Source: an uncultured Methanobrevibacter sp. (GTDB taxonomy: Archaea; Methanobacteriota; Methanobacteria; Methanobacteriales; Methanobacteriaceae). Taken from it: a DNA stretch of 64,000 bases. The stretch covers positions 1 through 64,000 of the forward strand of contig NZ_CAMJUE010000004.1 of NCBI RefSeq assembly GCF_946408925.1, in the 5' to 3' direction. The position numbers were made by a program, and so were the translations under genes. The notes beneath the pieces were generated by a model. That model was given only the letters and a program-made list of their open reading frames with translations, did no database searches and was not told where the DNA came from. The first letter of the stretch is position 1, and each line of letters begins with the position of its first letter. Of the stretch, positions 4,749 through 26,582 are shown in pieces.

Positions 4749-4764
4749 TTTTCAAATGCTCTCT
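4749..4764 (+). promoter_or_regulatory. Shared repair motif, copy 1, upstream of nurA-herA
   Basis: The sequence TTTTCAAATGCTCTCT is followed six bases later by the TATA-like ATTTAAATAA (4771-4780). The predicted transcript start near 4800 leaves a short leader before nurA. The same 16 bases occur at 20067-20082 before the Hrq1-like helicase, and 15 of 16 occur on the minus strand at 19887-19902 before the UvrD-type helicase, always with the same spacing to the TATA box. I read it as a binding site for a shared regulator, or as an extended upstream promoter element. The regulator is unknown. Confidence 0.7.
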
Positions 4765-4839
4765 AATTTGATTTAAATAATATTAAAATTAATAGTATAA
4801 TTAAAGATTTAAATAATATTTGCTAGTAGAGTGATATTC

Positions 4840-5913
4840 ATGTTAAATTCATTATATGAAAAGGCCATCGCTAAAAGGGGATTTATTCGGGAAATAAGTT
4901 CTGAAACCGATATTGACTCTCAACTGGAATATAAATGGTTTGATAGGAAGATTGGTGAAAGCACTAGTAATTTCTCCATTGCGGCCGGTGACGGAAGCTT
5001 TAACAAAAAGAAGTTTTTAACCACCAACTTCTGTGCGGTCGGTGCGGAATCCATTATTTACGATGGCGAAATTAAAAAAATAGACGACTCGGATATCTTC
5101 GATATTTCCCATGTGTCATTTCTTGATGAACTTTTAAGTAATTATATGGCAATTTACGAGTTGAAATGTGCTATACGGACAATGAAAGAGTATAATGTGG
5201 ACTATTACATGTTTGACGGATCTATTTTGGGAGACCTTCAAAATGCCTTTCCGAGAGGTGCAAAAATGCCTTCCAAACTTAAAGACAATCTTGATGACTC
5301 TTTATTGGCGGAGTTTGAACGAAGATTGAGCATTAGAAAATACGGTTTGGTATTTCCTGAAATCAGGGATTCTTTAAAGCTTGTGGAATTGCCAAAAACT
5401 GATGATGCCAATAAAATTGAAGAGTACAATCTTCATTTGGCATCTGTTGAAAAGATAATTCTTTTAAAGGAAATTCTACAGTTCAGAAAAAGAATTATTT
5501 CAATTTCTAAAACATCCTCTGATAATGAATTGTTTAAGTGGAATATTCCAGATATTGCATTTCTTGATAAATTCACCAAAAAACAGGGAATGACAATTAT
5601 AAAGCATAAGCAAGTTTATGAGAATGCGCCGTTTCCATTTTTCAATGACTTTTTTAAAAGTCTGACATTTACAATTTTTTATGTTCGCCTTCAGGATAAT
5701 AAAAATATCCTAAAAGTGGAATTACCTTATAAGGCTACAAAAGAGGAAGTATTTGAGATTATACGTAAAATTAATGTCTTATCTGTTCAAGGTTATCCGT
5801 ATCTTTTAAACAAGGCTCATAATGATGTGGTGATAACCGGCAGGAATATGAAGGAACTGATGAAAATAGCTAAGATTTATGAGACAACAAATAGGGAAGT
5901 GATGTCATGGTAG
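4840..5913 (+). CDS. nurA: NurA 5'-3' nuclease
   Basis: NurA is the nuclease that works with the HerA translocase, and with Mre11-Rad50, to resect double-strand breaks. This protein has the RNase H-like core: AAGDGSFNKK near residues 47-56 and YMFDGSILGD near 128-137 supply the conserved metal-binding aspartates. NDVVITGRN near the end matches the NurA C-terminus. The ATG at 4840 is preferred. A GTG at 4831 is in frame, but the GAGTGAT just upstream of 4840 is the only plausible ribosome binding site. The gene overlaps herA by seven bases, so the two are translated together. The shared repair motif precedes it. Confidence 0.88.
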   Translation: MLNSLYEKAIAKRGFIREISSETDIDSQLEYKWFDRKIGESTSNFSIAAGDGSFNKKKFLTTNFCAVGAESIIYDGEIKKIDDSDIFDISHVSFLDELLSNYMAIYELKCAIRTMKEYNVDYYMFDGSILGDLQNAFPRGAKMPSKLKDNLDDSLLAEFERRLSIRKYGLVFPEIRDSLKLVELPKTDDANKIEEYNLHLASVEKIILLKEILQFRKRIISISKTSSDNELFKWNIPDIAFLDKFTKKQGMTIIKHKQVYENAPFPFFNDFFKSLTFTIFYVRLQDNKNILKVELPYKATKEEVFEIIRKINVLSVQGYPYLLNKAHNDVVITGRNMKELMKIAKIYETTNREVMSW

Positions 5914-7409
5914 TGGGAATCTGTGTGGGAGAAACCAATTTAAATGAAGTTACATTCATTTCAGATAAAATGCCGCAAGTTGGCCAATATGTAACAATAG
6001 AATATGACGGGAAAAAAGTATTGGGAATGGTGGAAAATTTAGTTAGAGGCAACGATGCACTGAATGTTGATATAAATGATTTTAAAGCAATTCAAAAGAT
6101 ATCTAAGATAGGTGTTGAAGACAACTACATAAGAGGCAAAGTGAAAATCCTGGGGGATGTAAACGATAATTTAAAATTGCCAAGAACTCCAGTTCTTCCA
6201 GGAACTGAAATTCAACTTGCAGATGCAAAAATACTAAAAGAGATATTTAAAGTTACAAATCCAATAAAACTTGGAACATTAGTGAATCAAAGTGATGTGG
6301 AAGTCAATGTGGATGCAAATCCAATACTGTCAAGACATTTGGCAATTCTTGCAATGACAGGAGCCGGAAAATCAAATACAGTTTCAGTATTAATCGACCA
6401 GCTACTGTATTATAATGTGCCTGTTTTTGTATTTGATATGCATGGGGAATATAAAGGAGCAGAATTCCCAAACGGTAATGTGAATGTAATCAAACCAAAA
6501 ATTAATCCGAAATACATGACATTTCATGAAATTAAAAAACTGGTAAATATTCCAAGCAATGCATACCTTCAGGAACGTTATTTCAGAAAAGCATTTAAAA
6601 AAGTTAAAAAACAAATTGAAGATGGTGTTGCGCATGAAAACAATTTCTTACAGTTAATGTATGATATACTGCAGGAGGAATCTTTGGATGAGAATTCCGA
6701 TAAAAGAATCGTTGATGTAATGAATAAGATTGATGATTCAATGGATAAGTACTCAAATCTCTTCGACCAGTATGCCGGCAATATTCTCACAAGTATTAAA
6801 AAAGCCCATGTCAATGTGCTTGATTTAAGTCAGGTTGATGAATCGGTTGCAAGTGTTCTTGTAAGCCATATACTTAGAAATTCACTGAAACGCTCCAAAA
6901 TTGCTGCCAACAGTGGAAATAAAGAGGAATTATTGGATAACTCTGTTTTTTACATTCTTGAAGAAGCTCATATTTTAGCTCCAAATAAACGTGATAGTGA
7001 TTCTAAACGTTGGATTCAGAGAGTGGCCAGAGAAGGACGTAAATTTGGATTAGGTTTGTGTCTGGTAAGTCAATCACCGAAAACGGTGGATCATGATGCA
7101 TTATCACAAATGAACAATATGATTATTTTAAGGCTTGTTGAACCTGAAGACCAAAGGCATGTTCAATCTGCAAGTGAAAGCCTGTCACAGGATCTGGTAA
7201 ATCAGCTGCCTTCTTTAAATGTAGGTGAAGCGATTGTTTTAGGTTTGATGACTAAAGTGCCTACTCTTGTTAAAATTGATAAATTCCAGGGCCGTACTCA
7301 TGGGGATGATATGGATATCATTTCTCATTTTAAGGATTCATTGAAAAGGGAAGCTGAAGAAATAGATAAACAAAATGAGGAACTTATGGACATGGGATAT
7401 CTTTATTAA
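5907..7409 (+). CDS. herA: HerA DNA translocase/helicase
   Basis: HerA is a hexameric FtsK-like ATPase that pumps DNA to NurA during end resection. Residues 1-90 form the HAS barrel typical of the family (GICVGETN, GQYVTIEYDGKKVLGMVENL). The Walker A motif MTGAGKSNT is near residues 150-158 and Walker B FYILEEAHIL near 348-357. RWIQRVAREGRKFGLGLCLV downstream provides the arginine-finger region, followed by SQSPKTV and EPEDQRHVQSAS. At 500 residues the length is standard. It overlaps nurA. Mre11-Rad50 follow after 233 bases that carry their own TATA-like box. Confidence 0.95.
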   Translation: MVVGICVGETNLNEVTFISDKMPQVGQYVTIEYDGKKVLGMVENLVRGNDALNVDINDFKAIQKISKIGVEDNYIRGKVKILGDVNDNLKLPRTPVLPGTEIQLADAKILKEIFKVTNPIKLGTLVNQSDVEVNVDANPILSRHLAILAMTGAGKSNTVSVLIDQLLYYNVPVFVFDMHGEYKGAEFPNGNVNVIKPKINPKYMTFHEIKKLVNIPSNAYLQERYFRKAFKKVKKQIEDGVAHENNFLQLMYDILQEESLDENSDKRIVDVMNKIDDSMDKYSNLFDQYAGNILTSIKKAHVNVLDLSQVDESVASVLVSHILRNSLKRSKIAANSGNKEELLDNSVFYILEEAHILAPNKRDSDSKRWIQRVAREGRKFGLGLCLVSQSPKTVDHDALSQMNNMIILRLVEPEDQRHVQSASESLSQDLVNQLPSLNVGEAIVLGLMTKVPTLVKIDKFQGRTHGDDMDIISHFKDSLKREAEEIDKQNEELMDMGYLY

Positions 7410-7642
7410 TCCCATTATTTTCAATTTTATCATATTTTTTCATAATTAATTTTTACTTTATTTGGAAAGAATTTTCTTTCTTCTTAAAGCGGGAAATTCA
7501 ATGAGGTTATATCAATATTGATTTGTTTTCAACTGATTTCAAGGCAAACTATTAAATATGGATTTAAATATACTAATACACATTAAATGCTTGAAATAGT
7601 GTTTAAATTGGTTATATACAAAAAATTTAAAAAGGTAATATA

Positions 7643-8884
7643 ATGAAATTTGCACATTTAGCAGACACTCATTTGGGTTACCGTCAATATGGTTTATTTG
7701 AACGGGAAAAAGACTTTTATGAAGTGTTTGATAAGGTTATAGATAAAATAATAGAAGAAAAAGTAGATTTTGTAATACATAGTGGGGACTTATTTGAAAC
7801 CGCAAGACCTTCACCGATGGCACTTTTAACTTTCCAAAAAGGGCTGTTAAAATTAAGGGGTGCCGGAATTCCTATGTATGCAATAGCCGGAAACCATGAT
7901 GTGGTAATGCGTAAGGGATCAATTCCTCCACATGTAATTTTTAAAAAATTGGGTTTAAAAGTAATCAGTACAATTAATCCGACATATATGCATGGTGATA
8001 TATTCATAGCGGGACTTCCTTACTATCCTGCCTCACATGGAAAGGCTCTTAAAAGCAAATTGGCTGAGTTATCCGAAAAGGCAAATCATCATGATAAATC
8101 AATTCTTGTTTTGCACCAGGGCATTGATAAATATTTCAGTTTGAACTATGAATTGGAAATCGGAGAGATTCCGGATAATTTTGACTACTATGCTTTGGGT
8201 CATATTCATAAATATGTTAATGATGCCTACGGTAAAGGAAGATTAGTGTATCCTGGATCTGGTGAAATATGGAAAACATCTGAACTAGCAGATTACAGAA
8301 TAAATGGCAAAGGTTTTGTGGTAGTTGATTTTGATGGTTCCAAACCGGTTATTAAAAGGGTGAAAGTTGACATCCCACGTGAATTTATTGAAAAAAATAT
8401 AAATTACAATGAATTGGAAAGTGGAATTGCAAGTATTAAAGAAATAATCAAGGGCTTTGATAAAAAACCTATTTTAAAATTAACTATCAAGGATGTTGAA
8501 TCAGACACCAGTCGAGTTTATGAAATCATAAAAGAACAGCTGGGAGATTTGGCTTTAATGATTAGGCCTACATTCATAATGGCAGGTGAAGAATATGAAC
8601 TTCTTGAGGTTGAATCCAAAAAATTGGGTCCAGAACAATTGATTGAAAGTAAACTTCAGGGATACGGCAATAGTGATGTTACAACTCTTGCTATTGACTT
8701 GTATCATTTGCTTTCAAAAGATAAGATTGATGAATCAGGAGAATTAATTCACCAATACTTCGATGCTCATTATAATGATGTGGATGAAGACTCGGAATTT
8801 AAAACAGAGCCGGTGGAAAATGATCAGCCTTCACAAGAAAAAGAAGATGGGCAGGTAACATTCGGCAAGGAGGTTTCAGAATGA
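7643..8884 (+). CDS. mre11: Mre11 DNA double-strand break nuclease
   Basis: Mre11 is the Mn-dependent nuclease of the Mre11-Rad50 break-processing complex. All five phosphoesterase motifs are visible: HLADTHLG at residues 5-12, HSGDLFE near 46, AGNHDV near 83, LHQG near 172 and ALGHIHKY near 190. The C-terminal 70 residues are acidic and of low complexity, where other archaeal Mre11 proteins bind Rad50. It overlaps rad50 by four bases (ATGA). A TATA-like ATTTAAATATAC at 7562-7573 and AAAAAGGTAATATA before the ATG indicate its own transcript start. Confidence 0.95.
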   Translation: MKFAHLADTHLGYRQYGLFEREKDFYEVFDKVIDKIIEEKVDFVIHSGDLFETARPSPMALLTFQKGLLKLRGAGIPMYAIAGNHDVVMRKGSIPPHVIFKKLGLKVISTINPTYMHGDIFIAGLPYYPASHGKALKSKLAELSEKANHHDKSILVLHQGIDKYFSLNYELEIGEIPDNFDYYALGHIHKYVNDAYGKGRLVYPGSGEIWKTSELADYRINGKGFVVVDFDGSKPVIKRVKVDIPREFIEKNINYNELESGIASIKEIIKGFDKKPILKLTIKDVESDTSRVYEIIKEQLGDLALMIRPTFIMAGEEYELLEVESKKLGPEQLIESKLQGYGNSDVTTLAIDLYHLLSKDKIDESGELIHQYFDAHYNDVDEDSEFKTEPVENDQPSQEKEDGQVTFGKEVSE

Positions 8885-11628
8885 TTTTCACAAAATTAAA
8901 ATTGAATAATTTCAAATCACATCAGCACACAGTTATTCAGTTTGATAAAGGTATAAGTGTTATTGTAGGTGAAAACGGAGCTGGTAAATCAACCATTCTA
9001 GAAGCAATTAGTTTTGCATTATTCAAACAGCACACTGCTAAAAAAATTGATGATCTGGTTAGAAATAATGCAAATACCATGTCTGTTGAATTGGAATTCA
9101 GTTCCAATAATAGGGATTATAAAATCATTCGTGAGAAAAAATCTAATTTAAAATCCTCACTTTATAAAAGAACTTCCTCTGAAGGAGGTTATGTCCACGT
9201 CTGCACAGGAGACAAGGAAGTTGCAGGTGAAATTCGTCAAATTCTAGATATTGATTCTGATTTATTCTTAAATGCAATTTACATTAGACAGGGTGAAATT
9301 GCAGAATTGGTAGATAAAACTCCTGCTGAGAAAAAACAATTGATAGGTAAATTGTTAGGCATTGACTCCTTGGAAAAAGCTTGGAAAAATTTATTGCCAT
9401 TCATAACAGATTATGAATCTGATTTGGCCGAGTTAAGTGGTAAATTATATAATTCTAATGAATTAATTGAAAATTATCAAAAGAAAAAATCTGAATTGGA
9501 AAGCCTTAAACAGAGAGGCTATGAACTGGAAGAGCAGATAGATGAAGTTGACGGATTGCTCAGGGAAATTTCTGAAAATAAAAGAAACATGGAAAGAGAA
9601 AAAGAAATCTATGAAACTCAAGTTAAAAATTTGGAAATGGAAGAAAAAACCTTCGCCAAATTGGATGAGGATAAACGCAGGGTTCAATCAAGCCTGGATA
9701 AGATTCGTGAAGCTGAAGAAGAAATCAGCAGATTGGAAAAATATGTTTCTAAACTGGAAGTTTATCTTGATTTTGAAAAATCAGTAACAAGTATCCAGTC
9801 ATTAAAAAAACAAGAAGAGGAAATTGAAGATACATTGGATTCCATTTCCGAACAAAAAGAAATAGTTTCCTCTAAAAAAGAGGGATATAATAATTATCTT
9901 TCTTCCGATGAAGATATTTCCAGATTAACCGACCAAAAAAATAACTTTGAAAAAGAATTGGCTGCAATGGCTAAACTTGAAAAGGACAAAAAAGAATTGC
10001 TCAAAAACATTGAAGAGGAAAGAAATGATATTGACAAATTCTTTTCAAGGTCTAAAGATAAACTGCAGGATTATGGTTTAGATCAAGATAAATTAGCTGA
10101 AATTGATGATTTCAATCATCTTGAGAATGCCACCAATGAATTTATCCAAGAAACATCTTCCAAAATTGATGATTTGAATAAGGAAATCATTACTAAAAAT
10201 GAAGACATTGTGGTTTATAAACAGAATATCAAAGCCTGTAAAAAACCATTGAAAGATTTGGATGGTATTGACAACAAATGTCCTGTATGTCAATCCGATA
10301 TCAGTTCTTATAAGAAAAAAGAGTTGACTAAACATTATACTGGTGAAATTGAGGAGAATGAAAAATTAATTACTCAAAATGAAGAAGATGTTCGTTTATT
10401 GACTAAAAATAAGAATAGCTTTGAAGAAAAACATCAAAATCTCACAGAGCTGTCCAAAAGTATAATAGAATATAAACAGAAATTTGAACATCTGCAAAAT
10501 GAGCTAATTAGATTAAATAAAATGGATGAAGATTTAGAGGCTAAGGAATACATCAGCAATAAACTTGGTGAGTTAATATTGGTCATTGCCACTAAAAAAG
10601 AAGAACGTGAATCCTTTAAACAAGATCATGATTCTTACATTCAATCCAAAGGTGCTTTAGATGTTTTAGGCAGTGAAACTGAAGCTCAATATAAATTAAA
10701 ACAAGTGAGAAATGAAATCGATAATCATGTAACCAATATTAAATTGGCCATTGATCAGGACCCTCATTTAAGCGGAGACATTAGTCCTAGTGAACTTAAA
10801 AATCGTATTGATGATTTGAAAGAAAAAAATGAACAATACAATCAGTTAAAAGGATTTGTTCAGAATAAAAATTCATATTTGACTCAATTGGATTCAATTA
10901 AGGAAGACATTGGTGTTTCATTAAATCAGAAAGATATCATTGAAAATAAAATCAAGGCTTCTTTATATGATGAAGAGAAATACGAGCAGATTTTATATAA
11001 TTTCGAACGCTACGAAAGAAGGAAAAATACTTTTAATGAAGAGCTTTTCACAATTAAAGGCAGAGCAAAAGAATCAATTGCTGTTCTTCAGGATTTGGCT
11101 GAAAAAATTAAAACGGCATCCAAATTCAAACAGGAATATGATAATGTCAATGAATATATCAGTCTTTTAAAACATATCCGTGAACTGTACAGCCGTGGAG
11201 GAATACAAAAAGATTTAAGAAATATTTCACGCCCTGCAATTCAAAAACACACCAAGGAATTCTTTAAGGAATTTAATTTCAACTATTCTGATTTAACTAT
11301 TGATGATGACTATGAGGTCACAGTTTACGGTCCTGAAGGTGAATCATCAATGAGTATGGTCAGTGGTGGTGAAAAAATAGCTATTGCACTTGCTTTAAGA
11401 TTGGGTATTACTCAAGCAATGGCTAACGGTGAATTGGATACTATTTTGTTAGATGAACCAACAATTCATTTGGATGCTTCAAGAAGACATGAATTGATTA
11501 ATCTGTTGAAGGAAATGTCTTCATTGCCTCAAATGATTATTGTGACTCATGAAGCTCAACTTGAAAACGCTGCGGATAATCTAATAAAAGTGGAAAAGGA
11601 AAATGGTATTTCAAAAGTAATAATGTAA
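8881..11628 (+). CDS. rad50: Rad50 ATPase of the Mre11-Rad50 complex
   Basis: Rad50 is an SMC-like ATPase that bridges DNA ends and controls Mre11. The N-terminal Walker A motif GENGAGKSTILEAI is at about residues 32-45, with the Q-loop YIRQGEIAELVD near 137. Two long coiled-coil halves flank the zinc hook C467-P-V-C470. The C-terminal half has the ABC signature MVSGGEKIAIALALRL and Walker B ILLDEPTIHLD, followed by the switch histidine in IIVTHE. At 915 residues it is a normal archaeal Rad50. The codons overlap mre11 by four bases, which suggests coupled synthesis in the 2:2 complex. Confidence 0.96.
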   Translation: MIFTKLKLNNFKSHQHTVIQFDKGISVIVGENGAGKSTILEAISFALFKQHTAKKIDDLVRNNANTMSVELEFSSNNRDYKIIREKKSNLKSSLYKRTSSEGGYVHVCTGDKEVAGEIRQILDIDSDLFLNAIYIRQGEIAELVDKTPAEKKQLIGKLLGIDSLEKAWKNLLPFITDYESDLAELSGKLYNSNELIENYQKKKSELESLKQRGYELEEQIDEVDGLLREISENKRNMEREKEIYETQVKNLEMEEKTFAKLDEDKRRVQSSLDKIREAEEEISRLEKYVSKLEVYLDFEKSVTSIQSLKKQEEEIEDTLDSISEQKEIVSSKKEGYNNYLSSDEDISRLTDQKNNFEKELAAMAKLEKDKKELLKNIEEERNDIDKFFSRSKDKLQDYGLDQDKLAEIDDFNHLENATNEFIQETSSKIDDLNKEIITKNEDIVVYKQNIKACKKPLKDLDGIDNKCPVCQSDISSYKKKELTKHYTGEIEENEKLITQNEEDVRLLTKNKNSFEEKHQNLTELSKSIIEYKQKFEHLQNELIRLNKMDEDLEAKEYISNKLGELILVIATKKEERESFKQDHDSYIQSKGALDVLGSETEAQYKLKQVRNEIDNHVTNIKLAIDQDPHLSGDISPSELKNRIDDLKEKNEQYNQLKGFVQNKNSYLTQLDSIKEDIGVSLNQKDIIENKIKASLYDEEKYEQILYNFERYERRKNTFNEELFTIKGRAKESIAVLQDLAEKIKTASKFKQEYDNVNEYISLLKHIRELYSRGGIQKDLRNISRPAIQKHTKEFFKEFNFNYSDLTIDDDYEVTVYGPEGESSMSMVSGGEKIAIALALRLGITQAMANGELDTILLDEPTIHLDASRRHELINLLKEMSSLPQMIIVTHEAQLENAADNLIKVEKENGISKVIM

Positions 11629-17386: not shown

Positions 17387-19825
17387 CTAAATTAAGTAAA
17401 TTTCATCAAATCCGATATATTTTTCATTTCTACTCCATCCAAGTGCCACGTTCGGGATATTGAAGTGTTTGTCTTTACGTTTATATCCTTCAATTGCATT
17501 ATTAAGACCAACCAATATTAAAACGCTTTCAGCTCTGGAAAATGCAACAAAGTAAAGTCTGGTCAAATCATCGAATGACCTGTCCTTTTCACTTCTTTTT
17601 GAATCTCCAAGTTCACTATATTGGCGTATTGTATCCTCGATGCTGATATTTTTGGCAGGTTTTTTGGGAAACCTCAGCCTTTGTGTTTTAATGTTGTTGT
17701 CTCTGAATTTGGAACCGACATCCACTATTACTAAAGGAAATTCCAGCCCTTTAGACTGATGAATTGATAAAACATTCACTCTATCTTCAGGCAGTGTTTC
17801 AAGAAGTGATTCGTCAATCTGAATGCCTCCTGTTGACAAAGGTATAAAAATATTCCAGATTGCCTCTAAAATAGAAGCTTTTTCCTCTTCTTTATTAACG
17901 AATGAAATGTGTGAGTAATATTTGCTGAAAAATCCTGTTTGGGTTATGGATTTGGTAATCGCTTCAAGATATACAATTCCTTCAACATCTTCCTGTAACT
18001 CATCAATCCATGTAATCAATTTATATGCCAGTTCCATTAGACCGGCTTTTTTAGGCCATTTTTCTCTTTTTCTTGGTGTTCTGTTCTGCCAGTAAAGTAC
18101 AAATTGACTTAAATTTATAGGTTCATGAGGTTCCGGATTAAGCTTAATGTATTCACGGGCTTTCACTCTCCATTTATTCATTGTTATCTTGGCCAAATTG
18201 GGAATGGTTTTATCACTAATCTGTATTTTACCTTCAGGGTCAATACATTCAAGCATCAATCCGCAAAAGATTTCAACAACTTCGACTTTTTGCAGTTCAA
18301 TTCCTCTGGGGTTAAATACTTCAATAGGTTTTCTCTGCTTTTTGAGATGTTTTCTTAAATAATATAAAAGGGAATTGTTTCCAAATTGTTTTTCTTTAGG
18401 TGAATAGGATAATATCGCAATATCTGATGCAGAACCATACTCCTCATCTAATTTAAGGGTAATTTTATCAATTTTTTTACCTTCCTTTTCTTTTTGGGCA
18501 TTAATCTGCTGTAATTTGGCAATATCAATATCGCCGTCAACCTGTTTAAAGTAGTCTTCATCAAGCACCTTTAAAACTTTTAGTTTAACTTCTCCATTGT
18601 TGATGAGTTTTGAAATAAGATTGGACAATGATTTTGAAAGCATTTCCACATTATTTCTAAATAATCCCAATACGGGCATTTTATCCTTTTCAAAATCTGG
18701 TGCAATGATTTTGGGCTTGTCGTTCACCCTTGCGAGCTGATAGTCTTCATCAAGTTCCACAAAATGGTTGCAAAGGTCGATGATATTTTCCGTTGAACGG
18801 TAATTTGTTTTTAGATTAATCTCCTCCACATCTATGCCGAGCTTGCTTTTCGCACGTGATTTATAGTTGGTAAATAAATCCACGGTAGCTCCTCTAAATC
18901 TGTAAAGGGACTGGTCATCATCTCCTACAACTGTGATGCTGCCGTCATTTTTCAGTGCGGATTTTGCAATGGTGAAATAGATGTCTTCCTGAATCAGGTT
19001 TGTGTCCTGATATTCATCGACTAAAACGATTTTCACATTGTCCAAAAACAGGTCCAATTTGTGCTGTTTCATTAAATTTAAAAATCTTGATTCAAGCATT
19101 GTAAAATCCATGGTGTTTCTGCCGGTTAAGATTTCTTCATATTTTCTTATACATTCGAGAATGATTTTCATTCCTTTGTTGTGTTCGTTTATTTTGTATA
19201 ATTCCTCAATGTCAACCTGGTCCTGATAGATTCTGTCTTTTATTTCAAGCAATGTTCTGCTCATCTTTGAAGGTTCATCCAGCTTTTCCTTTCCGGTTAA
19301 ATTTTTAAGATAATCCTGTAAGCTTTCATTTTTATATATCTCATTTTCGCTAAGTATTTTTATCATTGCTGAGTTTGCAACAAATTCTTCAATGATAATA
19401 GGATGATTGGTTCCGGGTTCCTTGTGCTGTCTCATGATTTCTTCTGCTAATTTGTCAATCGTGCCCACATTAATCTGATTGAAATCGATTTTAATGACTT
19501 TTTTAATTCTATCAAAATCATCAGTATTGTCAAGTATCTGATTTTTAATCTGATCTCCCCAGCCTAAGATTCTTGAATATAACTCTTCAGCGGCTTTTCT
19601 TGTAAATGTTGTTGCAAATATTTCATCCGGACGGATATCATCAACAAAAATGAATTTCAATATTTTCAATACCATTACGGTGGTTTTACCGCTTCCGGGT
19701 CCGGCCACTAGGAATAATGATTGGTTGGGCCTTGACAATATGGCTTTTTTTTGATCTTCATTTGAAGAAATGTCTCTTTCAAGTACATTTACTACGATTT
19801 CCTCAAATTCTTTTAGTGATATCAT
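17387..19825 (-). CDS. UvrD/Rep-type superfamily 1 DNA helicase
   Basis: The protein of about 812 residues carries SF1A helicase motifs in order: FLVAGPGSGKTTVMVLKIL (Walker A), FATTFTRKAAEELYSRI (Ia), NVGTIDKLAEE (Ib), VLVDEYQDTN (Walker B), VVGDDDQSLYRFRGA (III), LKTNYRS (IV), VNVLSIHQSKGLEFPLVIV (V) and YFVAFSRAESVLILVG (VI). It should unwind DNA 3' to 5'. An ATG at 19837 is in frame, but AGGG in its own codons gives the ATG at 19825 a proper ribosome binding site, so 19825 is favoured. The promoter has a TATA-like box at 19871-19879 and the shared repair motif upstream. It pairs with the nuclease gene downstream. Confidence 0.92.
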   Translation of the reverse strand: MISLKEFEEIVVNVLERDISSNEDQKKAILSRPNQSLFLVAGPGSGKTTVMVLKILKFIFVDDIRPDEIFATTFTRKAAEELYSRILGWGDQIKNQILDNTDDFDRIKKVIKIDFNQINVGTIDKLAEEIMRQHKEPGTNHPIIIEEFVANSAMIKILSENEIYKNESLQDYLKNLTGKEKLDEPSKMSRTLLEIKDRIYQDQVDIEELYKINEHNKGMKIILECIRKYEEILTGRNTMDFTMLESRFLNLMKQHKLDLFLDNVKIVLVDEYQDTNLIQEDIYFTIAKSALKNDGSITVVGDDDQSLYRFRGATVDLFTNYKSRAKSKLGIDVEEINLKTNYRSTENIIDLCNHFVELDEDYQLARVNDKPKIIAPDFEKDKMPVLGLFRNNVEMLSKSLSNLISKLINNGEVKLKVLKVLDEDYFKQVDGDIDIAKLQQINAQKEKEGKKIDKITLKLDEEYGSASDIAILSYSPKEKQFGNNSLLYYLRKHLKKQRKPIEVFNPRGIELQKVEVVEIFCGLMLECIDPEGKIQISDKTIPNLAKITMNKWRVKAREYIKLNPEPHEPINLSQFVLYWQNRTPRKREKWPKKAGLMELAYKLITWIDELQEDVEGIVYLEAITKSITQTGFFSKYYSHISFVNKEEEKASILEAIWNIFIPLSTGGIQIDESLLETLPEDRVNVLSIHQSKGLEFPLVIVDVGSKFRDNNIKTQRLRFPKKPAKNISIEDTIRQYSELGDSKRSEKDRSFDDLTRLYFVAFSRAESVLILVGLNNAIEGYKRKDKHFNIPNVALGWSRNEKYIGFDEIYLI

Positions 19826-19886
19826 TTTTTCCCTCATTATGTTAATATGGATTAATTTATTTACTTTTTAATTTATAAAGTAATTG

Positions 19887-19902
19887 AGAGACCATTTGAA
19901 AA
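19887..19902 (-). promoter_or_regulatory. Shared repair motif, copy 2, upstream of the UvrD-type helicase
   Basis: Read on the minus strand this is TTTTCAAATGGTCTCT, differing from the other two copies at one base. Seven bases on, towards the gene, is TTTATAAAT (19871-19879), the presumed TATA box. The helicase start is a further 35-45 bases away. The copy at 20067-20082 serves the divergent helicase, so both sides of this intergenic region carry the motif, each pointing outward. Confidence 0.7.
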
Positions 19903-19959
19903 GTATTCATTGCAATGCGATTAAAAATAAAAAGTTATATTAATGTAAAATAATATTTA

Positions 19960-20027
19960 TTATTATGGGAGTGATTTTTCTTCCATAATATGCATGAGTT
20001 AGAAGCAATTTTGCTTCTAACTTTTTT
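19960..20027 (+). ncRNA. Candidate small RNA with two hairpins and a U-tract
   Basis: This stretch lies in a 339-base gap between divergent helicase genes, where no mRNA should end. Hairpin 1 pairs TATTATGGGAG (19961-19971) with CTTCCATAATA (19980-19990), with one G-U pair. Hairpin 2 pairs GTTAGAAGCAA (19998-20008) with TTGCTTCTAAC (20011-20021) and is followed by six T (20022-20027), a terminator shape. A TATA-like GTTATATTA at 19934-19942 sits about 25 bases before hairpin 1, as expected for an archaeal promoter starting near 19960. A 34-codon frame starting at the ATG in TATGCATGAG overlaps it but lacks a ribosome binding site. Confidence 0.45.
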
Positions 20028-20066: not shown

Positions 20067-20082
20067 TTTTCAAATGCTCTCT
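20067..20082 (+). promoter_or_regulatory. Shared repair motif, copy 3, upstream of the Hrq1-like helicase
   Basis: TTTTCAAATGCTCTCT is identical over 16 bases to the copy before nurA. It is followed after six bases by ATTTAAATATAC (20089-20100), the presumed TATA box; transcription would start near 20122 and the gene begins at 20165. Identity extends weakly into the flanks (a TTA/TTT run before, and TTT about two bases after). Confidence 0.7.
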
Positions 20083-20164
20083 GGTTTAATTTAAATATAC
20101 TTATTAACAAAATGATAATAGTATTGAATGAATTGTTAAATTTCCAAAAAAATTAGCTGATATT

Positions 20165-23029
20165 ATGTCTGATATTGATAAAATTGATATGTTTAAAAAT
20201 GATGTGAGGTATAGGGAAAATATTGCCCATATAGAAACAATTCCCGCCAAGAAAGCCAGCTTTAAAAAAGTTGACAATTTGAATGAAAGAATTGTTGATT
20301 ATCTCAAAGCAAAAGACGTCAAATTATATCAGCATCAGGCGGAAACCTATGATGCAATTAAAGATGGTGAGAATGTAATAATCACAACTCCTACAGCATC
20401 AGGCAAAACCTTAGCTTTTAATTTGCCTATAATGGAGACCATGATTGAAGACAATGATGCAACCGCATTATATATCTATCCGGCAAAAGCACTGTCCAAT
20501 GACCAGCTGCATGTTCTGGAAAACCTGGAAAATGACCTGGATATTAAAATCAGGCCGAGAACCTATGATGGGGACACACCTCGTGAAAATAAAAGGGGAA
20601 TTCGTGAAAAGTCAAGAATCGTATTGACAAATCCTTATCAGTTGCATTTAATTTTATCCTGGCATCATCAATGGTCAAGATTTTATAAAAACTTAAGATA
20701 CATAGTTATTGATGAATCCCATTATTATAAGGGTGTTTTCGGTTCAAATGTTGCATTTTTGATTAAAAGATTAAAAAGAATTGCCAATTTTTATGGGGCT
20801 TATCCTCAATTTATCTTATCCTCAGCAACCCTTGCAAATCCTCTGGAGCTTGCAAACAGGTTAACCGGTGAAGAGTTTAAATTGGTGGATAATGACACTT
20901 CCCCAAGCGGAGAAAAAGACTTTATTTTATACAATCCATTTAAGAATTATGTTAGAAAAAAGGTCAATTCTCAAAATGCGCCTTCTGTTCACATGGAAAC
21001 GGAAAACATATTCATGTATATGATGCTTAAAAATATTCAAACATTGTGCTTTACAGTTTCAAGAAAAACCACTGAATTAATCGCAATGTGGGCTAAAAAA
21101 GATATGGGTCAGGTTAAAGGGCAATTGGCACATAGAATTGCTGCTTACAGGGCAGGATATCAGGCTTCAGAAAGGCGTGAAATAGAAGATGGTCTTAAAA
21201 GCGGAAAATACTTGGGGGTAACATGCACCAATGCACTGGAACTGGGAATAAATATAGGTTCTCTTGATGCGGTCATCATTTCAGGATATCCCGGAACCAT
21301 GATTTCAACATGGCAGCAGGCCGGACGTGCAGGAAGAAGCAGTCAGAAATCTCTTGCAGTATTAATCGCTTTTGAAAATCAGCTTGACCAGTATTTCATG
21401 AACAATCCCAAATTTTTCTTTGACAAACCTCATGAGAATGCAATTATTGATTTGACAAATCCTATTTTGCAGGAAGCTCATTTATTGTGTGCAGCAAAGG
21501 AACTGCCTCTTCAAAGAGGAGAATCGGAAAAATACTTTGGAATTTCACAGGATGTTATTGACAAACTGATCTTGAAAAAAGATCTATATGAAAATCATAA
21601 AGGGGATTTTATCTATCCTTATGATGACAATCCCGCAATGGACCATTCCTTGGACCAGATATCCTCAGAAGAGTTCAAAATAATGAACAACGGTAAACTT
21701 CTTGAGACTATGGAAAGATCCCAGGTTTACAGAGAAGCCCATGAAGGAGCTATTTTAATCAATAAAGGGGACACATATGTCGTAAATGATGTTAATCTAA
21801 AAAACGGATTTGTAAATGTGTCCCAACAGACGGTGGACTATCATACGATGGTTTTAAATCAGACTGACACTAACATTAAAAAGAAACTGTCAAAAACAAA
21901 ATACGGCAAACTGTCAATTCATTTTGGGGAACTGACAGTTAGTGAAGATTATTTTAAATATAAGAAAATGCAGTTTTCAAAATCCGTGGGAACTTTCCCG
22001 TTGGATCTGCCTCCTTTGAAATTCAATACCAAAGGATTATGGTTTACAATACCAAAACAGGTTAAGGACACATTGGAAGACATGTTTCCTAATGAGGAGG
22101 AAGTTTTTGCAGGAGGATTGCATGGTGTGGAACATGCATTAATAGGTCTGTTCCCGTTACATACTATGTGTGACAGGTTTGACATTGGAGGACTATCAAC
22201 TAATTATCATGAGGACACTCAGGAAGCTACAATATTCATATATGACGGTTATGAAGGGGGAATCGGAATTTGCGAAAAGGCGGTTGATGTTTTCGTTGAA
22301 CTTTTAAACTCCACTATTAACCTATTAAACAACTGTCAATGTCAAAGCGGATGTCCTTCATGTATCTATTCACCAAAATGCGGTAATGATAACAAACCAT
22401 TGCATAAGAATGCCACTAAATATATTTTAAATTACATGCTTCAGCTGATATCCAATAATGATTGCGATGGTGAAATTCACTCGGAGATAATAATTGAAAA
22501 CGAAGAAATTCCGGATGAGTTTGATGAGGCTTACGATTTATATAATAAAGGGGATTATTCGGCTTCAAAAGATGTTTTGAACAGCATTATTGCAAATGAT
22601 AAGAAACATGCTCGTGCATTGGCTTTAATGGCTCAAATATTATATGAACAGGATCAAAAAGATATCGCATTATTGTTCACCAGAAAGGCTCTCTCCTGTG
22701 ACAGGTCAAATGAAATGGCCAATGAACTTGAAGTTTTGCTTGTAAATAAGTCTCAAAAGGAAGATGTTGTTTTGAATTCACTGGATGATGTTGAAACATT
22801 ATATGAAGAGGCGTATGATTTGTACAATCAGGGAGACCTTGCCACTGCATCTGACATTCTTTTAAAGCTTTTGGATTTTGATGATAAAAACTCTGAAGCA
22901 TTGGCATTAATGGGATTGATATATTACAGTTCGGGAATGTTTGCAAAGGCAATAGAACTTTATAAAAAGGCATCCAAAATAAATAAAAATGGTGAAATGG
23001 TTAAGGAGCTTAAAATTAGGGTGTCTTAG
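20165..23029 (+). CDS. Hrq1/MrfA-like DEAD/DEAH helicase with DUF1998 and TPR repeats
   Basis: A 954-residue SF2 helicase. Motifs run QHQAETYDAI (Q-like), TTPTASGKTLAF (Walker A, near residue 78), VIDESHYYKG (DEAH-like, D-E-S-H), LSSATLAN, CTNALELGINIG and QQAGRAGRSSQ. C-terminal to the motor is a DUF1998-type zinc region with C-x-C-x3-C-x2-C-x5-C in CQCQSGCPSC followed by IYSPKCGND. This architecture is that of Hrq1 and MrfA, helicases of interstrand-crosslink and mitomycin repair. Residues from about 780 add at least four tetratricopeptide-like repeats (EAYDLYNKGDY, EAYDLYNQGDL), unusual for the family. It has the shared repair motif upstream and ends in a four-base overlap with the converging reductase gene. 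Confidence 0.88.
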   Translation: MSDIDKIDMFKNDVRYRENIAHIETIPAKKASFKKVDNLNERIVDYLKAKDVKLYQHQAETYDAIKDGENVIITTPTASGKTLAFNLPIMETMIEDNDATALYIYPAKALSNDQLHVLENLENDLDIKIRPRTYDGDTPRENKRGIREKSRIVLTNPYQLHLILSWHHQWSRFYKNLRYIVIDESHYYKGVFGSNVAFLIKRLKRIANFYGAYPQFILSSATLANPLELANRLTGEEFKLVDNDTSPSGEKDFILYNPFKNYVRKKVNSQNAPSVHMETENIFMYMMLKNIQTLCFTVSRKTTELIAMWAKKDMGQVKGQLAHRIAAYRAGYQASERREIEDGLKSGKYLGVTCTNALELGINIGSLDAVIISGYPGTMISTWQQAGRAGRSSQKSLAVLIAFENQLDQYFMNNPKFFFDKPHENAIIDLTNPILQEAHLLCAAKELPLQRGESEKYFGISQDVIDKLILKKDLYENHKGDFIYPYDDNPAMDHSLDQISSEEFKIMNNGKLLETMERSQVYREAHEGAILINKGDTYVVNDVNLKNGFVNVSQQTVDYHTMVLNQTDTNIKKKLSKTKYGKLSIHFGELTVSEDYFKYKKMQFSKSVGTFPLDLPPLKFNTKGLWFTIPKQVKDTLEDMFPNEEEVFAGGLHGVEHALIGLFPLHTMCDRFDIGGLSTNYHEDTQEATIFIYDGYEGGIGICEKAVDVFVELLNSTINLLNNCQCQSGCPSCIYSPKCGNDNKPLHKNATKYILNYMLQLISNNDCDGEIHSEIIIENEEIPDEFDEAYDLYNKGDYSASKDVLNSIIANDKKHARALALMAQILYEQDQKDIALLFTRKALSCDRSNEMANELEVLLVNKSQKEDVVLNSLDDVETLYEEAYDLYNQGDLATASDILLKLLDFDDKNSEALALMGLIYYSSGMFAKAIELYKKASKINKNGEMVKELKIRVS

Positions 23030-26509: not shown

Positions 26510-26582
<73 letters not shown>

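Follow-up and report, generated by a model that had tools for sequence, protein, structure and literature searches.

What occupies the space between two helicase genes that are both read away from it, where no mRNA should end? The question arises in a 64,000-nucleotide stretch of an uncultured Methanobrevibacter sp. (the window, contig C4 of a 2.3-Mb archaeal genome), in which a 327-bp gap separates the gene of a UvrD-type helicase (17387-19837, minus strand) from the gene of an Hrq1/MrfA-type helicase carrying an MZB domain (20165-23029, plus strand). The initial annotation had proposed a small RNA in this gap, regulated together with the helicases, and its description of the site is accurate: the flanking genes are divergent, two hairpins (stems of 11 bp and 12 bp) lie at 19961-20023, six T (20022-20027) follow the second, and a TATA-like box, TTATATTA (19935-19942), starts 26 bases before the first, where about 25 had been given. 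The UvrD-type protein probably starts at its second ATG (codon 5; window 19825-19837), since similarity in many relatives begins at codons 2-5. The parts of the element are as follows.

19928-19942, plus strand: putative small-RNA promoter, comprising an A-rich BRE-like stretch (19928-19932) and the TATA-like box (19935-19942), from 39 aligned upstream regions.
19960-20027, plus strand: putative small-RNA gene made up of two hairpins, the linker and a T tract (3' end predicted), from the fold, matches to covariance model R1 and stem covariation.
19961-19990, plus strand: hairpin 1, 19961-19971 paired with 19980-19990 (11 bp), from the fold, covariation and G-U pairs.
19996-20023, plus strand: hairpin 2, 19996-20007 paired with 20012-20023 (12 bp), from the fold and covariation.
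20022-20027, plus strand: run of six T, probable termination site, from the sequence and from T runs in relatives.

The fold of 19960-20027 reaches -28.1 kcal/mol, compared with -9.2 ± 2.8 in shuffled sequences (z -6.8; 0 of 200 shuffles as good). Searching the window with Rfam release 15 gave a tRNA at 26510-26582 as the sole match at or above threshold and none in the gap; a permissive search of the gap scored 14-19 bits, against thresholds of 45-112, and a search of eight loci of the small RNA and of its probable target, cbiM, returned no family at the gathering score.

The distribution of the element was followed by reading the gap from relatives through its helicases, and by a genome-wide search with a covariance model (R1) seeded with the gap copies. 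In 18 of the first 21 loci (the window's own counted) the two hairpins recur and enclose a conserved core, CCATAATATGCAT. At E<=0.001, R1 matched 40 of 67 Methanobrevibacter genomes, with a single copy in each, and gave zero matches outside the genus across 150 genomes of the order. All 40 copies sit in the uvrD/hrq1 gap and are oriented like hrq1; three of them are near a contig end, where just one of the two helicases is visible. The copies in named records belong to Methanobrevibacter in 19/19 cases, M. thaueri among them, and the element pattern had 0 matches in viral contigs. In genomes without the element the gap usually measures 137-145 bp; two genomes (G088 and G004) carry apparent decayed remnants, judged by eye, and in G008 the gap is rearranged. 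An Hrq1 protein tree (58 rows, from a short search and with many weak forks) explains the distribution by six changes, which fits one gain and five losses, the element being missing from 5 genomes nested within the clade. Two weak R1 matches considered as second copies (G027:C148 and G004:C16, E about 0.005) were rejected, both being the antisense strand of cbiM starts, as was a third (G028:C106, plus strand), which is the element read on its other strand. In G073 the RNA is present (36.8 bits), yet it falls under the cut for alignment A4.

Covariation in the hairpin arms, named by the initial annotation as a check on its small RNA, was analysed in 39 relatives' sequences, and the stems proved to be compensated. 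In the alignment, which was fitted to the model, 95.4% of the stem cells are paired, double changes affect 10 of 18 pairs (56 double-change cells vs 14 ± 5.6 in shuffles), and sliding the partner by 1-3 columns lowers pairing to 37-58%. G-U pairs outnumber A-C pairs overall (72 vs 20 cells), in hairpin 2 (32 vs 3) and in an alignment made by MAFFT only, without the model (76 vs 26), which argues for the plus strand as the RNA; the fold energy of that strand is the better one in 36/39. BRE and TATA elements are parts of an archaeal promoter, and the 39 aligned upstream regions have A at frequencies of 0.59-0.82 from -32 to -28, T at 0.87 at -24 and no G from -25 to -19; in 32/39 the 8-mer from -26 to -19 contains neither G nor C, as against 3-9/39 for the positions tested between -62 and -34. 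With TATA box and start spaced as is usual in archaea, the 5' end of the RNA would fall near 19960-19966, at the base of hairpin 1. Within 20 nt of hairpin 2, a run of at least five T is present in 27/39 relatives, vs 9/39 for an upstream control stretch; a T run directly behind the hairpin is not universal among them. The proposal of a small RNA is thus strongly supported by single-copy conservation, compensated stems, strand-specific G-U pairs and a positioned TATA box, and these features of the sequence strongly support 19960-20027 as a conserved RNA gene of Methanobrevibacter.

The most conserved part of this RNA is the 3' arm of hairpin 1 together with the linker, and a search for the reverse complement of this segment in genome after genome led to the translation start of one gene. 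Within the window's genome, CTTCCATAATATGCAT (19980-19995) is the exact reverse complement of that start, which lies on another contig (C69). The encoded protein is CbiM (TIGR00123 at 337.6 bits, cut-off 184; Pfam PF01891), the substrate-binding S component of the CbiMNQO cobalt ECF transporter, and the small membrane protein directly after it presumably resembles CbiN. The start is laid out as a Shine-Dalgarno sequence (GGAGGA), a few A/T bases and then ATGCATATTATGGAAGG, encoding MHIMEG. The match defines one further feature:

19978-20002, plus strand: putative antisense segment, 25 contiguous bases able to pair with cbiM mRNA, around the exact 16-nt core at 19980-19995.

The cbiM start reads exactly ATGCATATTATGGAAG, a 16-mer, both in the window's genome and in 31/31 RNA-bearing genomes with a readable main cbiM; judged by place, every exact occurrence in the 67 genomes is either a cbiM start or the strand opposite the small RNA, and a control pattern (the reversed one), with one mismatch allowed, had 3 matches across all 67. 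Pairing was assessed in 31 genomes with the RNA and a main cbiM of >60% identity. Eight of the 39 aligned RNA-bearing genomes have no main cbiM above this line (G085, G036, G031, G082, G001, G070, G078 and G086); these are incomplete assemblies (81-94%), and the 50%-identical cbiM that exists in G070 was excluded from the pairing test. Uninterrupted pairing between RNA and cbiM, with G-U allowed, covers 14-30 nt in 31/31 genomes; of the 25 nt in the window's genome, 18 belong to the coding sequence, counted from the AUG, and 7 to the leader. This duplex is predicted at -39.8 kcal/mol, compared with a best of -30.9 and a mean of -18.7 for 46 other gene starts in the window, and in 31/31 genomes a genome's own RNA/cbiM pair beats shuffled RNA (z -3.0 to -9.8). 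The conservation of the cbiM 16-mer alone proves nothing, since the protein (MHIMEG) dictates this stretch as well and 19/23 genomes without the RNA keep it. A second CbiM paralog was rejected as the target, its start (TTGCATATACC in most) being unlike the complement of the RNA. This paralog is about 30-38% identical, mostly has a TTG start (L202-L214, L216-L218) and carries AGTATTAC shortly before the Shine-Dalgarno sequence in 15/16 loci; AGTATTAC is perhaps a NikR-type site, and the paralog perhaps a nickel transporter.

The complementarity extends past the AUG into the non-coding leader, where no protein constrains the sequence, and the RNA itself has no protein to preserve. The leader pairing score is 152 for own pairs vs 116 ± 6.6 for permuted ones (0 of 20,000 as high, in a permutation that ignores relatedness), and the match is in register at 175/217 positions, as against 56-104 at offsets of 1-7. 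Individual genomes illustrate it: an additional T before the AUG in G010 is matched by an additional A in its RNA; G062 has AC and not TT at leader positions -2/-1, and its RNA has GT and not AA; and clades with leaders ending in TTATTT or TAATTT carry mostly the RNA linkers AAATAA or AAGTTA. The natural variation of about 30 species already supplies compensatory RNA/leader pairs. Leader pairing amounts to 0-2 nt in 7/31 genomes (G066, G003, G079, G072, G018, G028 and G062), and a phylogenetic sign test at the clearest leader position, on a tree that leaves out three of the 31 genomes, yields 1-2 independent pairs, too few for significance. Four loci (L190-L193, from G025, G007, G002 and G066) encode a different type of CbiM (MHIMEGFLPP, 84% identical), preceded by the leader and first codons found in their relatives; it looks as though the coding part had been exchanged and the start paired by the RNA retained.

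The RNA is best read as a trans-encoded antisense RNA. It shows conserved structure on one strand (covariation, G-U asymmetry), complementarity to the translation start of its target (31/31 genomes) and a gene independent of and distant from that target (on C4 with cbiM on C69 in the window's genome, and 336 kb from cbiM in the single-contig genome G029), and the positioned TATA box in the 39 relatives points, as far as sequence goes, to a promoter of its own. Conservation, structure, strand, promoter position and exact complementarity into the leader are established here by computation. We consider it likely that the RNA acts in trans, pairing with the cbiM start and repressing the gene. The gene at 19960-20027 would be transcribed on the plus strand from its own promoter into an RNA of about 65-70 nt with a fold of two hairpins. 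The linker and the target-matching 3' arm of hairpin 1 would pair with cbiM mRNA over the AUG and the bases between the AUG and the Shine-Dalgarno sequence; the pairing would hide the start codon and keep the ribosome off, and this block of cbiM initiation would in turn lower cobalt uptake. Because the conserved segment is exactly antisense to the cbiM start, the RNA probably blocks CbiM production; we infer repression rather than activation, and likewise an inducing signal.

The best of the other explanations accepts the same RNA and the same pairing and gives them the opposite effect, activation or stabilisation of the mRNA, through the opening of an inhibitory leader structure or the masking of an RNase site. 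The pairing spans the AUG to codon 6 and should thus block an initiating ribosome, and the sites of activating RNAs usually lie upstream, which also counts against it. In its favour, the cbiM leader in this clade is able to fold into hairpins, and M. mazei sRNA154 is described in PMC5867862 as stabilising some of its targets. We regard activation as unlikely, though the least so of the alternatives. The element might also be a cis-acting structured 5' leader or attenuator of hrq1, given the shared orientation of all 40 copies; however, in many gaps hrq1 has a TATA-like stretch of its own before its start, even where the element is missing, the distance from element to hrq1 is variable, and the complementarity to cbiM would be left unexplained, all of which make this very improbable. 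Still less credible is a terminator or transcription barrier between the divergent genes, at the DNA or RNA level and with no target in trans: a hairpin and T run do stand at 19996-20027, but an intrinsic terminator would end a converging gene, whereas both neighbours read outward, the T run is found in just 27/39, and neither the invariant unpaired linker nor the upstream promoter would be expected. An equally faint prospect is a minus-strand copy of the cbiM start, as a decoy mini-gene or relic, for although that strand reads ATG CAT ATT ATG GAA, like cbiM codons 1-5, its frame then enters a loop that varies freely between species and has no preceding Shine-Dalgarno sequence in the window, and G-U pairing, fold energy and promoter all favour the plus strand.

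Regulation of the RNA together with the helicases, which the initial annotation had linked to two copies of a repair motif in the region, did not hold up. The two copies are present:

19887-19901, minus strand: repair-motif copy facing the UvrD-type helicase gene, with one mismatch, judged to lie outside the RNA gene.
20068-20082, plus strand: repair-motif copy facing hrq1, exact, upstream of a TATA-like stretch (20090-20099), judged to lie outside the RNA gene.

In 35 gaps (three contig-end loci and one mis-anchored locus excluded) the uvrD-facing motif keeps a distance of 48.1 ± 2.6 nt to uvrD and a variable one, 91 ± 72 nt, to the RNA; it is still present in 16/19 short gaps without the RNA, and the hrq1-facing copy occurs in 11/35 gaps. 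In a member of the repair-motif regulon, motif and promoter would be a constant distance apart, which is not so for the RNA; what ties the RNA to the helicases is position only. The initial annotation as a whole therefore stands for the small RNA and falls for the co-regulation, and the probable target, cbiM, was absent from it. The motif itself, TTTCAAATGCTCTCT, also occurs at 4750-4764 (plus strand), upstream of an operon resembling nurA-herA-mre11-rad50 (4831-11628; named from translations), and similar stretches recur across the genus; it is a candidate operator of an archaeal DNA-repair regulon.

The surroundings of cbiM hold further conserved sequences. Upstream of cbiM, 25/31 loci share a conserved palindrome, TTAGGTTTGCCTAA, which looks like a metalloregulator operator; its position is -162 to -166 from the ATG in 21 of them (about -163 to -166 in L149, L151, L160 and L172, for example) and -41 to -50 in 4 relatives to which the RNA model gave no match. 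The RNA-bearing clade has a longer cbiM leader, with one or two possible hairpins between the presumed promoter and the Shine-Dalgarno sequence (L149, L151, L160, L172); these lie in the last 100 bases before the cbiM start and possibly belong to the same regulation. The palindrome is strong in 4/39 small-RNA promoters (L046, L056, L067 and L069), vs 0.26% of shuffles, with an overall mean near the null; a metal operator as a general feature of the RNA promoter was accordingly rejected.

A broader proposal, which we advance tentatively and rate somewhat below an even chance, is that of a dedicated antisense RNA with essentially one target, which arose once, in a clade of gut Methanobrevibacter, co-evolves base by base with the cbiM leader and sets cobalt uptake, and hence the corrinoid supply of methanogenesis, where bacteria would use a cobalamin riboswitch; the palindrome TTAGG-N4-CCTAA common to cbiM and, in at least some species, to the promoter of the RNA would suggest one metalloregulator for both. 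Cobalamin riboswitches upstream of bacterial cbiM genes regulate cobalt uptake after transcription, at the start of cbiM. The bacterial device is a cis-acting sensor of its ligand, whereas the control proposed here would act in trans by base pairing.

Closer relatives in kind are known from methanogens. Methanosarcina mazei sRNA162 is an intergenic, trans-encoded RNA with stem-loops whose single-stranded linker masks an mRNA ribosome binding site (PMC3510493). The present RNA is like it in being intergenic and trans-encoded, with stem-loops and a linker that would pair with mRNA; however, sRNA162 measures 191 nt and the present RNA about 65-70 nt, the linker is the most variable part of sRNA162 and the most conserved of the RNA described here, and the target is a regulator gene in the former and a cobalt transporter in the latter, sRNA162 being reported, in PMC3510493, from Methanosarcina only. 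In the same organism a loop of sRNA154 masks the ribosome binding site of glnA2, and sRNA41 masks such sites in polycistronic mRNAs (PMC5867862). These too are trans-encoded methanogen RNAs, but according to PMC5867862 their targets belong to nitrogen and acetyl-CoA metabolism, sRNA154 has several, and the genus and order are different. Among the matches listed (titles and abstract openings, in a coverage that leaves out subscription papers) for small RNAs of Methanobrevibacter, methanogens and Methanothermobacter, the present RNA was not described; nor, among the matches listed and with the same coverage, was an antisense or small RNA of cbiM or an archaeal small RNA of cobalt uptake.

The length of the uninterrupted pairing, the apparently single target and the apparent co-evolution of target and RNA would be unusual. 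A defined target is known for few trans-acting small RNAs of archaea, and the methanogen examples compared here are all from Methanosarcina. If the reading as a repressor of cbiM is true, it would place such an RNA in Methanobrevibacter, a main methane producer of the rumen and gut, and would give it a precise target open to experiment, in the uptake of the cobalt that methanogenesis requires for its corrinoid enzymes.
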